NCBI RefSeq assembly: GCF_000020945.1
Contig: NC_011295.1
Coordinates: forward strand, 992,001-1,056,000
Direction of reading: 5' to 3'
DNA: 64,000 nt
Origin: Coprothermobacter proteolyticus DSM 5265
GTDB taxonomy: Bacteria; Coprothermobacterota; Coprothermobacteria; Coprothermobacterales; Coprothermobacteraceae
The notes under the pieces are model-generated. The model was not told the DNA's origin and made no database searches. It saw only the letters and a list, made by a program, of their open reading frames with translations. Below are positions 3,024-51,266 of this stretch, in pieces. Within the stretch, counting starts at the first letter, position 1. Each line of letters starts with the position of its first letter. Position numbers and translations under genes: made by a program.

Positions 3024-4604
3024 GTGAGGAAACTGAAAAAACAATTCGCTTCGCGCTTTATGATCTCTTTTGCTGCTTTGCTAGTATTCTTCTTGTTTAT
3101 TGTGGCTAAACCCGCTTTTGGTATAACCATAGGCGTTCCTGACGAACTTTTAACAGGCTTACCGTTGGCCGAGCTGCACACTTTTGGCAAAGGCGTTCTA
3201 ACGTTGTTTGCCGGGTATACGGGCGTTGAACCAAACATAGTTGAAGAACCACTAGATCAGTTAATGCAACAGCTCATACAGGGTGATATTGATGCAGTAC
3301 TGAGCAGGCCCCGAACAGGTATTACAGAATCCGATGCTTATTTTGAAGGTTCCCCACTGGCTACAGTCTCTACAACCCTACCTGCTCACGGCGGCTTTAT
3401 TTGCTTGCCAACAACTTCAGAAAACTTAAGAATAGCCAAAAGCTTACAACTGGGGCTTTCAGCTACCTCTGCGTGCACAGCATCAATGGATGTGGAATTA
3501 ACTCTGGTCCCAGTTTACGCAAAGACTCAGCAAGGGATTCTCTTCCAAAACAAATTTGAAGAGTTCCTTGTTCGCAATTACGATGCTGTTTCATTGGTTG
3601 CCAAATCGGCGGGATTTACGCCTTTAAAACCTACTCTGGCAAACCTGTTCTGGAGCAGTCCGTGGTCATGGCTTCTTTTGTTTTTATCAGTGCTTCTTTT
3701 GTTCATACTGGGAGTCCTGCTTTTTGAGCTCAGGAAAGAAAACCGACATTACAAAGATGAAAATCGTTTGCAGCTTGAAAAACTGTCAACCGTGCAATCA
3801 CGACTACTTGATTTACAACATCAAATGAGAATCCTGGTTGATGATAATACTTTACTTACGGAACAGAAAGAAAAGTGGGCACAGGCACAAAAAGGCTTGG
3901 AGATTTACATAAGTGCGTTCAAAGAATTGCTTAAGCAGTTGGAAGTTTTAGGAAACATTGGAAAAGCAGATTCCTTATCTGCTGAATTCATTGATCAGAT
4001 GTGTAATAGGATGAAAACTTCCTTTTCAGCGAAAGAAGTAGCTCTTTACCTCTACAACCCAAAGGAATACAAGTACATTCTCGCTGGCGGACACGTAGAG
4101 GGCATCGAGCCAGTTTTAGCCATGACTGATCCCATGGTTTATGTTTCCTCCCAGCCAGGCAATGTGGTTGAGAAAAATGTTGCAGAAGAGAAAGTACTCA
4201 TAGGTACTTTGGGAAGTTTCGAAACCGAGAATGGCTTTGTCATAGTAAAGGATCCAGCCATTCCTAATCCAAATCAGCTACTTTCAGCGCTATGTAACAC
4301 ATTGTACTTGGTTATAGCCCTCCATAGGAGCAACTCCAGAGTCTCCAACATGGAACAAGCACTATCGCAGCTGGAGAAACTTGAAGGAGCAAGGGCACGT
4401 GAAGATTTCATCGCTACGCTTAACCATGCTGGATTCACCATAATTGAAGATTTATCAGATACAAACGTGGGCAACTTCAAGGGGCGCCTAATACATTTGG
4501 ATAGTGCCAAAATAGCATTGGTTGCCCCGGAGAATTGGCCAAATGAACTCGACTTCATACTACTGCACCTGGTAGAAGAGGCTTTATCGAATACAGCTGA
4601 GTAG
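3024..4604 (+). CDS. Membrane sensor-like protein: binding-protein domain, coiled coil, GAF-like domain
   Basis: I do not recognise this as a named family. The 526-residue protein has an N-terminal signal or anchor (residues 12-33), a periplasmic region of about 180 residues with the flavour of a solute-binding-protein domain (GVPDELLTGLPLAELHTFG, DQLMQQLIQGDIDAVLSRP), one membrane helix at 213-235, a long charged coiled coil at about 240-310, and a C-terminal cytoplasmic GAF-like alpha/beta domain. There is no histidine kinase, GGDEF or HD module, so its output would be by protein contact. Start is GTG 3024 with a weak AGGGG site; ATG 3060 is possible. It follows the DUF1461 gene by 19 bases. 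Confidence 0.5.
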   Translation: MRKLKKQFASRFMISFAALLVFFLFIVAKPAFGITIGVPDELLTGLPLAELHTFGKGVLTLFAGYTGVEPNIVEEPLDQLMQQLIQGDIDAVLSRPRTGITESDAYFEGSPLATVSTTLPAHGGFICLPTTSENLRIAKSLQLGLSATSACTASMDVELTLVPVYAKTQQGILFQNKFEEFLVRNYDAVSLVAKSAGFTPLKPTLANLFWSSPWSWLLLFLSVLLLFILGVLLFELRKENRHYKDENRLQLEKLSTVQSRLLDLQHQMRILVDDNTLLTEQKEKWAQAQKGLEIYISAFKELLKQLEVLGNIGKADSLSAEFIDQMCNRMKTSFSAKEVALYLYNPKEYKYILAGGHVEGIEPVLAMTDPMVYVSSQPGNVVEKNVAEEKVLIGTLGSFETENGFVIVKDPAIPNPNQLLSALCNTLYLVIALHRSNSRVSNMEQALSQLEKLEGARAREDFIATLNHAGFTIIEDLSDTNVGNFKGRLIHLDSAKIALVAPENWPNELDFILLHLVEEALSNTAE

Positions 4605-47726: not shown

Positions 47727-47760
47727 TACCCGTATACCCCGTGGGGTATACGGGTATAAT
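47727..47760 (+). promoter_or_regulatory. CsoR/CstR-type palindromic operator at the disulfide oxidoreductase promoter
   Basis: TACCCGTATACCCC (47727-47740) and GGGGTATACGGGTA (47743-47756) are perfect 14-base arms around GT. The right arm runs into TATAAT (47755-47760), so a bound repressor would cover the -10. The core TATACCCC-GT-GGGGTATA closely resembles the palindrome at the csoR-type gene (51242-51266). Confidence 0.65.
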
Positions 47761-47794
47761 AATTTACGGAGTTATTAAAGTAGGAGGTGCCTGC

Positions 47795-48496
47795 ATGGCA
47801 ATTTTGAAAGAATCTGACAAAAAAGAGGTCCAAAAAAGACTCGCTGTCATGAACAAAACAGTAAAGGTAATTACATTTTTACCTGAAAGTGATATTATCG
47901 TGCCCGGACGTCGTGAATGTATGTACTGCAACGAAGTAAAAGAACTTATGTCAGATCTTGTGGCTACAACTGATAAACTTTCCTTAGTTTTGATCGACCC
48001 ACTAAAGCAACCTGAAACTGCTCAAGAATACGGCCTAAAGAAAGATTCGCTCGGTTTCATGTACCCAGCGATAACATTCTCTGTCTTGGAAGATGATGGA
48101 CAAGAAAAACACTACAACATTTGGTTCTATGGCATTCCTGCCGGATACGAGTTTGCAACACTTCTGGACGACATCATACTGCTTTCAACAGGTAATGTGA
48201 AACTTAATAAAGCTTTGCTACCTCAACTGGCTGCCATAAACACTAAGGTTACAATGGATGTGTTCGTAACACCTACGTGCCCCTATTGCCCCAAAGCAGT
48301 CTTCACAGCTCACCAGTTTGCTTATTTCAACCCAAATTTCACAGGAAATATGATAGAAGCCAGCGAGTTTGAAGAACTTACAAACCGCTGGAACGTCTAC
48401 GGTGTTCCAAAGACTGTCATAAACGAAAAAATAGAGGTGGAAGGTGCCGTACCAGAGAACCTGATGCTTGACTACGTCAAAAACGCACTACTCTGA
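47795..48496 (+). CDS. Protein disulfide oxidoreductase, two thioredoxin folds
   Basis: The 233-residue protein (glutaredoxin-like PDO family) has two thioredoxin domains with CMYC at 42-45 and CPYC at 162-165. PDO proteins are typical of thermophiles, where they make, reduce or shuffle disulfides in cytoplasmic proteins, often with thioredoxin reductase. ATG 47795 follows AGGAGGTGCC. The promoter overlaps a perfect palindromic operator, so expression is presumably induced by thiol, persulfide or metal stress. A terminator follows at 48526. Confidence 0.88.
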   Translation: MAILKESDKKEVQKRLAVMNKTVKVITFLPESDIIVPGRRECMYCNEVKELMSDLVATTDKLSLVLIDPLKQPETAQEYGLKKDSLGFMYPAITFSVLEDDGQEKHYNIWFYGIPAGYEFATLLDDIILLSTGNVKLNKALLPQLAAINTKVTMDVFVTPTCPYCPKAVFTAHQFAYFNPNFTGNMIEASEFEELTNRWNVYGVPKTVINEKIEVEGAVPENLMLDYVKNALL

Positions 48497-48525
48497 ATAA
48501 CAACAAGAAACATTAAGAATATAAG

Positions 48526-48557
48526 AAGGCTCCCAGTTTGCTTCTGGGAGCCTTTTT
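48526..48557. terminator. Bidirectional intrinsic terminator
   Basis: AAGGCTCCCAG (48526-48536) pairs with CTGGGAGCCTT (48544-48554) over a seven-base loop, followed by T-rich text on the right and A-rich on the left. It serves the disulfide oxidoreductase gene and the converging flavodoxin-like operon. Confidence 0.9.
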
Positions 48558-48572
48558 ATATTCCTGTGATCA

Positions 48573-49082
48573 TTAGCACTGACGAGCTATTTCTTTTATG
48601 CGGTTAGATAATGTCCAAACCTTCTCGGTGTCTACATTGTCCACTGAATGAGGATCCTCACCCATGATTTGAAACAGTTCTTGAATATTTGACTTTTCTT
48701 CTTCGGTAAGCTGATCTAGATCTACAGCCCCTGGGAAATTGGCAAGAGCCAAAGGAGGCCTATCAAATAGACCCAAGTACTGTCGGACATAGATGGGTCC
48801 GCCTATTTTTCCACCATTCCATGTTCTCTCGTCTTCGATGAGACTGATAGCCACACCGGCCCACATTCTTCCATAAAGATCACTTCTGTGTGTCTGTATA
48901 AACTCCAACATGTCTGGATTTAATTTGTGATTGTACACCCCGGCAACGAAGACAATGGCATCTCCCCAAAAAGACTCCACTTGTTCCACCGATTGAGCTT
49001 CACCATCAAGTGCTTCAGCAATGGCTTCAGCATAACGCTTTGAAGCTCCATGCCTGCTAACATAAATCACCTGTACCTGCAT
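48573..49082 (-). CDS. Flavodoxin-fold protein
   Basis: The 169-residue protein has a flavodoxin-like fold, with the FMN loop seen as YVSRHGASKRYAEAIAEAL and later GDAIVFVAGVYNHKLNPDML and WAGVAISLIEDERTW. It resembles the HemG/flavodoxin_5 group. It may donate electrons to the sulfur or Fe-S proteins encoded just upstream (49085 on), with which it shares an operon with a two-base gap. The first P-loop residue run differs from the S/T-x-T-G-N-T of classical flavodoxin, so FMN binding should be tested. Confidence 0.7.
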   Translation of the reverse strand: MQVQVIYVSRHGASKRYAEAIAEALDGEAQSVEQVESFWGDAIVFVAGVYNHKLNPDMLEFIQTHRSDLYGRMWAGVAISLIEDERTWNGGKIGGPIYVRQYLGLFDRPPLALANFPGAVDLDQLTEEEKSNIQELFQIMGEDPHSVDNVDTEKVWTLSNRIKEIARQC

Positions 49083-49084
49083 CT

Positions 49085-49729
49085 CTAAAGATCACCCCTT
49101 CCCTGATTTACTACTTCAATGTCTTTTACTCCGGGCAAGTCAGAGACTTTTTCTTTTATCTCATCGATAATTTCCTGCAAATAGGGATCATCGTGAGCAA
49201 AGGAGATTTCTATTCTGACTTTCCCATCGTCAACTCCAATGTATTTTACACGCTTCAAAGACACTATGTCCAAACCCTGAGGCGGGTAAATCACATGGTA
49301 AAGTTCCTCCCGCACTAAATCGGAGCTAAGTTCTTCTTCAGGAAGACGACCCGTTTTTCTAAGATAGTCCTTGATAGCCGCTCTTAAACCGTCCACAGCA
49401 AGCACTGAACAATGGTACTTAACAGGAGGAAGTCCTCCAAGTTCCTGGACTGCCTCTGTCCACTTGATGGACAGTGCTTCTTCTAAGGTCTTCCCTTTCG
49501 CCAAATCAGTAACAATGGAAGCTGTAGCTATGTTGCTGGCACAACCGTAAGATTCAAATTTTATGTCCTCGATGACATCGTTGTTTATCTTCAAATAAAT
49601 GGCTATCTGATCCCCACATGCGGGGCTTCCCACAAGAGCTTCCGCATCAGGATTTTCTATAACCCCTTGGTTATGTGGGTTTTTAAAATGTTCAATTACT
49701 TTAGGATTGTATTTTATCGACATGCTCAA
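49085..49729 (-). CDS. IscU-type Fe-S scaffold fused to a MIP18/SufT-like domain
   Basis: The 214-residue protein has an N-terminal IscU domain with the three scaffold cysteines at C38 (SPACGDQIAI), C63 (YGCASNIA) and C107 (YHCSVLAVDGL), and a C-terminal MIP18/DUF59 domain at about 136-211 (LVREELYHVIYPPQGLDIVSLKRVKYIG). MIP18-family proteins (PaaD, SufT) help Fe-S maturation. I do not recall seeing IscU and MIP18 fused; the fusion suggests assembly and transfer in one polypeptide. It follows the NifS-like gene immediately. Confidence 0.8.
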   Translation of the reverse strand: MSMSIKYNPKVIEHFKNPHNQGVIENPDAEALVGSPACGDQIAIYLKINNDVIEDIKFESYGCASNIATASIVTDLAKGKTLEEALSIKWTEAVQELGGLPPVKYHCSVLAVDGLRAAIKDYLRKTGRLPEEELSSDLVREELYHVIYPPQGLDIVSLKRVKYIGVDDGKVRIEISFAHDDPYLQEIIDEIKEKVSDLPGVKDIEVVNQGRGDL

Positions 49730-49730
49730 A

Positions 49731-50915
49731 TCACTCCTTATAAACCTTTGGTGCTAACGGACTAATCTTGCGAAGCTTTGCCACAATACCTGGAATTACT
49801 TCCAAGAATTTGTCTACTTCTTCATCAGTGGTGGTCCACGTAAAGGTCATCCTGATGGCACCGTGAGCCCTTTCATAGTCTCCGTACATGGCAAGTATGA
49901 CGTGGTTTGCCTCTAAGAATGGATTTGCACAGGCGGAGCCAGTATCCACCGTTATATCTTCCATATCCAGGTACATCTCCACTGATTCGCCTTCCACATA
50001 TCTAAAGGTGAGACAGACATTGCTAGGCGACCTTAAGTCCCCCTCAGGACCGTTTAGCAATGTTTCTGGAACCAGTTCCATGGTTTCATTGATCAAACGA
50101 TTGCGTATGTGTTTCATGTGTTCTATCTTCTGTTCCAATCCGTCTTGCATAAGCTCCAATGCTTTTGCAGCACCCACAATGGATGGCACGTCAGGGGTAC
50201 CAGGGACAATTCTCGAATAAGCCTGACTACCGTATATGGGACCTTTTACAGGTACGCCTTTTTTCACCCACAAGGCCGTGACACCTTTTGGACCATGTAT
50301 TCTTTCTATGCTGGCCGTAATAATGTCAGCATAGGGTGCTAAAGCAAGATCTGCCAATCTTCCCAAAGCCCAGGTCAAATCATAATGAATAAGCACTTCT
50401 GGGTTTACGTCCCTAATAATCTTACTAATATCCTTAACCGGTTGAATAGTACCTACCATGTAGTTCACAGCAGCCATGGTTACAAGCACTGTGTCTTTTC
50501 CAAGACTCTCACTTAGCGCATCTAAATCCACTAAGCCGTTTGAATCCACCGGTAAGTAAGTAACCTTGATTTTCCCGAGCTTCTCAAGTTGCTTCACCAA
50601 ATCCATGGTAGTTCCGTGTTCAATAGACGTTGTTATGACGTGGGGAACCGTACCACTTTCAACGTTATTAAGTACACCCTGGATGGCAATGTTATTGGCC
50701 ACAGCGTGGCTGGGTGCAAAGTGAACCTCGTCAGGTTTTCCTCCAAAGAACTTTGCGTAAGCCATCTGGCTGTTCTCAATAGCTTCTGCTGCCGTAGTTC
50801 CGGTATAGGTAAAGGAAGACGGGGCCCAGTACTTCTCGGTCCACCATGGTATCATTTCATCAATAACACTTTTATCCACATAAGTGGATCTGCAGTGGTC
50901 AAAATAAGCTCTCAC
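49731..50915 (-). CDS. NifS/IscS-like class V aminotransferase without the PLP lysine
   Basis: The 394-residue protein is full-length NifS/IscS in layout, with IEH (H100, PLP-stacking His), HYD (D179, pyridine-N Asp), and the persulfide-carrying Cys in DTGSACANP (C329). The PLP-lysine site, normally S-x-H-K, reads SIERIHGPKG, so the lysine position is Arg (R205) and the His is Glu. The usual Gln after the Asp is also absent (D-L-T-W). Without the Schiff-base lysine it cannot be a normal cysteine desulfurase; the Archaeoglobus fulgidus IscS is a known comparable case. GTG 50915 is chosen from AGAGAGGAG about 11 bases upstream and family N-terminus. Confidence 0.8.
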   Translation of the reverse strand: MRAYFDHCRSTYVDKSVIDEMIPWWTEKYWAPSSFTYTGTTAAEAIENSQMAYAKFFGGKPDEVHFAPSHAVANNIAIQGVLNNVESGTVPHVITTSIEHGTTMDLVKQLEKLGKIKVTYLPVDSNGLVDLDALSESLGKDTVLVTMAAVNYMVGTIQPVKDISKIIRDVNPEVLIHYDLTWALGRLADLALAPYADIITASIERIHGPKGVTALWVKKGVPVKGPIYGSQAYSRIVPGTPDVPSIVGAAKALELMQDGLEQKIEHMKHIRNRLINETMELVPETLLNGPEGDLRSPSNVCLTFRYVEGESVEMYLDMEDITVDTGSACANPFLEANHVILAMYGDYERAHGAIRMTFTWTTTDEEVDKFLEVIPGIVAKLRKISPLAPKVYKE

Positions 50916-50954
50916 CTGCTCATACACTCCTCTCTGATTTACATACACATTGTT

Positions 50955-51221
50955 TTACTTACTTGTTTTTTCAATCAGGACCTGCAAAGCTTTTGATAGT
51001 TCTTCGCTGCCCTTCTCGGGTAAGCATTTAGCCATACGGTCTCGGACCATAAGAGAAACTATTTTCTTCATAAGCCCCTGCACAGCAGCAATTTGAGTAG
51101 CGACCTCAGTGCAGCAAACACCATCAGAAAGCATGCGTTCCACCGCAGAAAGTTGCCCTACAGCTGTTTTAACCATTTGAAGTACTTCATCTCCATAAGC
51201 AGGTCCGTCATTTGTTTTCAT
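50955..51221 (-). CDS. CsoR/CstR-family repressor
   Basis: The 88-residue all-helical repressor belongs to the CsoR family. Its metal triad C-H-C reads Cys36 (with Cys37 adjacent), Arg62 in place of His, and Cys66 (VRDRMAKCL). Loss of His and retention of two Cys is the pattern of CstR, which senses persulfides rather than Cu(I). It is the first gene of an operon with the NifS-like, IscU-MIP18 and flavodoxin proteins, and its promoter has a perfect palindrome. A GGTGAT site is the likely ribosome site. Identity to CstR is inferred, not proven. Confidence 0.78.
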   Translation of the reverse strand: MKTNDGPAYGDEVLQMVKTAVGQLSAVERMLSDGVCCTEVATQIAAVQGLMKKIVSLMVRDRMAKCLPEKGSEELSKALQVLIEKTSK

Positions 51222-51241
51222 AGAAGCATCACCAAAAATAT

Positions 51242-51266
51242 TATACCCCCCATGGAGGGGGGTATA
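51242..51266 (-). promoter_or_regulatory. Operator-promoter of the CsoR/CstR-type gene
   Basis: TATACCCCCC (51242-51251) and GGGGGGTATA (51257-51266) are perfect 10-base arms with a five-base centre. On the minus strand the operator runs into TATAAT as the -10. The candidate -35, GTATAT, is 18 bases upstream. This C/G-tract palindrome is the form used by CsoR/CstR-family repressors. Confidence 0.75.

Follow-up and report, generated by a model that had tools for sequence, protein, structure and literature searches.

We analyzed a 64,000-nucleotide stretch of the Coprothermobacter proteolyticus DSM 5265 genome (the window; positions 992,001 to 1,056,000 of NC_011295.1) and propose that CsoRa, a repressor of the DUF156/CsoR family encoded there, controls its own iron-sulfur (Fe-S) assembly operon, a convergent gene for a protein disulfide oxidoreductase (PDO) and a remote gene for a small heat shock protein (Hsp20). 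Palindromes built on C and G tracts precede all three transcription units and are best read from their sequence as CsoR-family operators of type 2 lying over promoter cores, because the operator type, the position on the promoter core and the adjoining DUF156 gene all point that way. We put the probability that CsoRa is the repressor at the three sites, and that reactive sulfur or disulfide stress releases it, at about one half; that one repressor would serve both the csoRa and the PDO site appears likely.

The candidate operator of the PDO gene (TACCCGTATACCCC-GT-GGGGTATACGGGTA, 47727-47756, no strand assigned), identified by sequence reading, a genome pattern scan and the alignment of four genomes, is a 30-bp dyad whose 14-bp arms are perfect when read directly from the sequence. 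Its layout is C4-N2-G4 nested inside outer TACCCG/CGGGTA half-sites, and its TAC-Xn-GTA spacings are X8 in the core (TATACCCCGTGGGGTATA, 47733-47750) and, through the outer half-sites, X16 twice and X24. The right outer half-site overlaps the TATAAT -10 hexamer of the PDO promoter (47755-47760, plus strand), and the ATG follows at 47795, 38 bp past the end of the dyad. The gene (47795-48496, plus strand) encodes a protein with the motifs CMYC and CPYC that matches TIGR02187 above its cut-off (E 1.3e-66) and also PF13192.

The candidate csoRa operator (TATACCCCCC-ATGGA-GGGGGGTATA, 51242-51266, no strand assigned), identified by sequence reading and the same genome scan, is a 25-bp dyad of C6-N5-G6 layout with X15 spacing, in which the N5 splits the arms. 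Its final TATA opens the TATAAT -10 hexamer of the csoRa operon (51240-51245, minus strand), and the csoRa ATG starts at 51221 on the minus strand, 20 bp from the dyad. An earlier note on this DNA had claimed two palindromes at these positions with a shared TATACCC...GGGTATA core, each overlapping a TATAAT, and reading the sequence confirmed this; its term 'near-identical' holds for the common core but is loose for the whole sites, C4-N2-G4 with outer half-sites on one side and C6-N5-G6 on the other.

The genome that contains the window is one contig of 1,424,912 bp, in which the strict pattern TATACCC-N0-12-GGGTATA (TATACCCN{0,12}GGGTATA) occurs at three places, each before a gene, while the reversed-pattern control gave 0. 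Dinucleotide shuffling of the window, repeated 100 times, never produced a match to TATACCCN{2,10}GGGTATA, and the strict pattern had 0 matches in each of 20 third-order Markov genomes of 1,424,912 bp, generated by a model fitted to the window plus ten further stretches. Two of the three places lie in the window, in agreement with the earlier observation that no other gene there has the palindrome; the pair described at that time belongs to a larger set, to which the scan adds a third site. This third palindrome (TATACCCCCATCGGGTATA, G000:C1:385494-385512, equivalent to L021:4494-4512) lies ~650 kb from the other two and ~55 bp upstream of the ATG of the gene for an Hsp20-family protein of 152 aa (PF00011, E 9.4e-20).

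Conservation was followed in the genome under study (G000), three further Coprothermobacter genomes (G001-G003), one of another genus in the family (G004), and four less closely related genomes of the phylum (G005-G008), among which G005 and G006 represent a sister family. A csoRa gene is present in G000, G001, G003 and G004, and its profile found no match in G002 (78% complete) or in G005-G008. The csoRa and PDO sites are both present in all four csoRa-bearing genomes, in which the arms TATACCCCCC/GGGGGGTATA are identical, both the outer and the inner half-sites of PDO are retained, and an unchanged TATAAT overlaps each operator. The convergent order of PDO and the flavodoxin-iscU-iscS-csoRa genes is also the same in these four. 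The Hsp20 site occurs in 4/4 Coprothermobacter genomes with a constant TAC-X9-GTA spacing and a variable centre, one flanking base departing from the strict pattern in G002. Within the PDO dyad, 2 of the 14 pairs are altered on both sides and none on one side only; the covariation score was reached in 25 of 500 shuffles and, with only four sequences, is weak, and the paired substitutions are suggestive, being as compatible with a hairpin as with a protein-binding dyad. Among 386 genomes, the CsoRa profile matched 38 at E <= 1e-6, but reached E ~1e-48 or better only in the four Coprothermobacteraceae genomes (next best 4.7e-12), and in the loci examined, which cover part of the 38 genomes, neither an IscS nor an IscU match stood beside another CsoRa-like regulator.

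Elsewhere in the phylum the strict pattern found no match in G002, G006, G007 and G008 and a single one in G005 (TATACCCGGGTATA). In G001, the matches to ATACCC/GGGTAT, the only ones taken further from a scan for ATACCN{1,14}GGTAT (20 versus 16 in the control for G000, 35 versus 53 for G001), were the three orthologous sites and one place in an open frame (453384). The looser TACCCN{0,14}GGGTA was uninformative by itself in G000 (23 versus 22 in the control). The sister family has iscS-iscU without a csoRa match; other inverted repeats, perhaps a terminator or a different operator, precede iscS in genomes of that family (ATACAGGGGGCATACATATGCCCCCTGTAT and ATACGGGAGACATGTATGTGTCTCCCGTAT, at loci L131, where iscS starts at 4120, and L132).

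CsoRa (88 aa; 50955-51221, minus strand) has PF02583 (the DUF156/CsoR-RcnR superfamily) as its sole Pfam match (E 4.2e-15, 56.3 bits, cut-off 22.8), in agreement with the earlier assignment of a CsoR/CstR-type gene to the head of one of the two operons, and it aligns with solved CsoR-family proteins. The copper ligands of M. tuberculosis CsoR are C36, H61 and C65. Cys37 and Cys66 of CsoRa align with Cys36 and Cys65 of that protein (2hh7), but the place of His61 is taken by Arg62 in three of the four CsoRa orthologues and by Ser in the fourth (G004), which leaves the Cys-His-Cys set incomplete. CsoRa has an extra cysteine, Cys36, immediately before Cys37, and this vicinal pair and Cys66 are invariant in the four orthologues. 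Since two family-position cysteines without the copper histidine are the pattern of CstR, our best guess is that the effector of CsoRa is reactive sulfur (persulfide) or a disulfide. In the accessible parts of the sources, CstR is described as bridging cysteines of adjacent subunits via sulfur, which derepresses its promoters (PMC9918477, PMC9405070). The csoRa operon itself holds no gene for a rhodanese, sulfite export, sulfide:quinone oxidoreductase (SQR) or persulfide dioxygenase, a statement that concerns this operon and not CstR-type genes elsewhere in the genome, which were not sought.

Behind csoRa, which comes first, the genes of the operon follow almost without gaps on the minus strand: an iscS/nifS-type cysteine desulfurase (49731-50948; PF00266, with TIGR03402 as best match below the equivalog cut-off, start codon uncertain), an IscU/NifU-type scaffold with a C-terminal FeS_assembly_P domain (49085-49729; PF01592 and PF01883) and, as the final gene, a flavodoxin-domain protein (48573-49082; PF12724, E 1.9e-30). 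This IscU is the one NifU_N protein that a profile search found in the whole genome, SufB-type systems lying outside that search. The best match of the genome to Rrf2/IscR (PF02082) scored 19.4 bits, below the cut-off of 30, and no Rrf2 protein rose above the family cut-off in seven of the eight phylum genomes searched, G008 being the exception. Because the sole NifU_N protein belongs to a csoRa-headed operon and no Rrf2 protein exceeds the cut-off, control of the isc operon may follow sulfur status and not IscR.

From the observed sites, their rarity and conservation, the promoter overlap, the gene order and the cysteines we derive a model that predicts DNA binding, tentatively assigns a repressor to PDO and Hsp20 and proposes both an effector and a direction of response. 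A reduced CsoR-family repressor would cover the -35 to -10 region and exclude RNA polymerase; CsoRa would thereby repress its own operon (with iscS, iscU and the flavodoxin gene), the convergent PDO gene and, remotely, the Hsp20 gene. Persulfide, polysulfide or disulfide stress would link Cys37 to Cys66 of another subunit, in the manner of CstR, and CsoRa would leave the DNA. Derepression would then raise the sulfur-mobilizing and Fe-S assembly machinery, disulfide exchange and an anti-aggregation chaperone.

Several observations weigh against assigning all three sites to CsoRa. The protein lacks both arginines of the RLXR motif, its helix 1 reading Met16-Val-Lys-Thr19. As far as the accessible text on S. 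lividans CsoR goes, DNA binding is abolished by R57A and Q81A and weakened by R54A; the equivalents of R54, R57 and Q81 are Met16, Thr19 and Gln43 in CsoRa. The second RLXR place is also Thr in M. tuberculosis 2hh7, and Gln43 (helix 2) is invariant in seven aligned Coprothermobacteraceae proteins. The genome further encodes a second DUF156 protein, CsoRb (G000:C1:1142716-1142943; PF02583, E 4.1e-22), whose helix 1 (Asn11-Leu-Arg-Arg14) retains the second RLXR arginine and which has the conserved Gln and the copper-site His. The sites differ in spacing (X15 at csoRa; X8, X16 and X24 at PDO; X9 at Hsp20), and the Hsp20 site is degenerate in G004. Near-matches to TATACCCCNNGGGGTATA with up to three mismatches are no commoner than chance genome-wide (3 versus 7 in the control for G000, 1 versus 6 for G001 and 5 versus 3 for G004); the two inexact matches in G000 fall inside open frames and none is claimed as a further member, and the four in G004 are at the csoRb promoter, at 335435 upstream of an open reading frame (ORF) and, twice, within ORFs.

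On these grounds the earlier proposal of one repressor for both promoters is supported in part: the palindromes resemble conserved operators of CsoR-family type over promoter cores, but a single repressor is no more than likely, given two DUF156 genes, differing spacings, the RLXR residues and a site at csoRb in G004. CsoRa might act only at its own C6-N5-G6 (X15) site and CsoRb at the X8/X9 sites of PDO and Hsp20, the likeness of the palindromes being a family resemblance. Besides the arginine and histidine that CsoRb keeps, this arrangement draws on the csoRb promoter of G004, which bears TTACCCCGTGGGGTATAAT, an X8 site like the PDO core, on the constant X9 of the Hsp20 site in Coprothermobacter, and on a survey of 52 DUF156 loci from other bacteria (34 plus 18, the latter plasmid-borne csoR genes hand-picked among 80 listed records from searches matching 302 and 326). 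There, all six genes that combine a site with Arg or Lys at the second RLXR place (L030, L105, L107, L157, L165 and L167) show X8 or X9, which suits CsoRb better at the PDO core and Hsp20. The survey is small, however, with sites scored at only 7 of the 52 loci and none at the other 45, and no PDO-like palindrome was found at the csoRb promoters of G000-G003. The PDO gene moreover adjoins the csoRa operon in all four genomes, its outer half-sites yield X16 pairs, near the X15 of csoRa, and the GGGTATAAT layout is common to the two sites, so that we hold a division of labor between two repressors to be rather unlikely. A metal-sensing regulon, with copper in place of reactive sulfur as the signal, is less probable again. 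The familiar CsoR proteins are copper sensors, copper targets Fe-S enzymes, and the vicinal Cys36-Cys37 pair with Cys66 could bind Cu(I), but the copper histidine is absent from all four CsoRa proteins, and the gene that best matches a heavy-metal ATPase in this genome (1125589) has no such palindrome upstream, an argument against a plain copper regulon; the sole TACCC/GGGTA match in the 8 kb around that ATPase lies ~2 kb downstream of the gene.

It is very improbable that the palindromes instead act as RNA hairpins, that is, as intrinsic terminators of iorB and of an upstream EF-G-like gene. The csoRa dyad scored as terminator-like because of the ATATTTTTGG that comes after it on the minus strand, the RNA fold of the PDO dyad has -26.4 kcal/mol (z -3.07), and the symmetric PDO substitutions would suit a hairpin as well, yet neither the PDO nor the Hsp20 site is followed by a T run. 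Each of the three sites overlaps or precedes its -10-like hexamer and hence would lie outside the transcript starting there, and the recurrence of one word before three genes that are not related to each other, one of them far away, with an invariant GGGTATAAT at two, fits an operator-promoter.

Some further features of these loci were recorded alongside. The csoRb site of G004 reads GTTACCCCGTGGGGTATA on the minus strand (L151:1501-1518; G004:C1:9594-9611), and the intergenic match of that genome (AATACCCCTTAGGGTATT, L154:1501-1518; G004:C1:335435-335452), ~90 bp before a 231-aa ORF, is a possible extra operator. The C-terminal cysteine of CsoRb lies two residues ahead of the family position in G000 (QHICQR); in G001 cysteines stand at both positions, and in G004 at the usual one. 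TACCC/GGGTA sites of a similar kind occur near some DUF156 genes in other bacteria, with near-perfect TACCCCC/GGGGGTA dyads at L108:1040-1054, L030:1369-1383 and L028:2254-2267, and a TAC/GTA site lies near 3 of the 18 plasmid-borne csoR genes. On the Priestia filamentosa plasmid pBEH3 (L167), a CsoR-family gene has TACCCTGCGGGGTA behind it, ~+412 from its start, with genes for DsrE-like and rhodanese proteins next, an arrangement that resembles YrkD/CstR loci. An apparent X15 at L100, whose protein is of the Thr type, falls within a longer, different 33-bp dyad and was discarded.

The regulators usually described for Fe-S assembly operons are IscR and others that, like it, sense Fe-S. We tentatively suggest, as a possibility that we consider doubtful, that in Coprothermobacteraceae a CsoR-family repressor with vicinal cysteines has replaced IscR, tying the only IscU/NifU-type scaffold operon to reactive sulfur supply and co-regulating PDO and a small heat shock protein through a long-spaced (X15/X16) operator and an arginine-less helix 1. 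PDO acts on disulfides and Hsp20 on unfolded protein, and their induction would be plausible as a joint answer to polysulfide or disulfide stress. If a thiol-sensing repressor of CsoR type does control that scaffold, sulfur-donor status, not cluster status, would govern Fe-S assembly in this thermophile, in a link with disulfide exchange and folding. The pairing of two CsoR paralogues with two operator-spacing classes in one small genome poses a question of its own.

Under IscR control of isc operons the repressor gene comes first in the iscSU operon, as csoRa does here, but IscR is an Rrf2-family Fe-S protein and CsoRa a DUF156 protein. Our literature screen, by titles and abstract openings and incomplete, found no publication on a CsoR/CstR regulon with isc, PDO or a small heat shock protein. 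The accessible part of the S. lividans CsoR study describes the type 2 operator as a pair of short G/C tracts flanked by AT-rich inverted repeats that carry a TAC/GTA dyad, gives the consensus ATATACCCCTNAGGGGTATAT and finds TAC-X9-GTA to be common (PMC3902906). The csoRa, PDO and Hsp20 sites all have this form, the Hsp20 site being exactly TAC-X9-GTA and the X8 core of PDO close to it; by comparison with the same text, the X15 spacing with C6/G6 at csoRa, the four nested half-sites at PDO and targets other than copper efflux set them apart. With CstR/YrkD of S. aureus, E. faecalis and B. licheniformis, as portrayed in the available excerpts (PMC9405070, PMC9918477), CsoRa shares the DUF156 family, the two family-position cysteines without the copper histidine and a regulator gene placed first in an operon of sulfur genes, but it has the additional vicinal Cys36 and lacks the RLXR arginines, and its presumed targets are not rhodaneses, SQR and persulfide dioxygenase but a cysteine desulfurase, IscU, a flavodoxin, PDO and Hsp20. 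Thermus thermophilus TTHA1953, as far as the accessible portion of its description extends, is likewise a CsoR-family repressor of sulfur genes, including the thioredoxin-like SoxW, with two-cysteine redox control and an operator of repeated TAC/GTA half-sites; unlike the system here, its operator (TACNNTACNNNNGTANNGTA) has no C/G tracts, its targets are sox genes and its gene is distant from them (PMC10318464). Measured against these systems, the operator type is ordinary; what is unusual is the proposed regulon, a variant in which isc, PDO and Hsp20 would answer to a CstR-like repressor of CsoR type.

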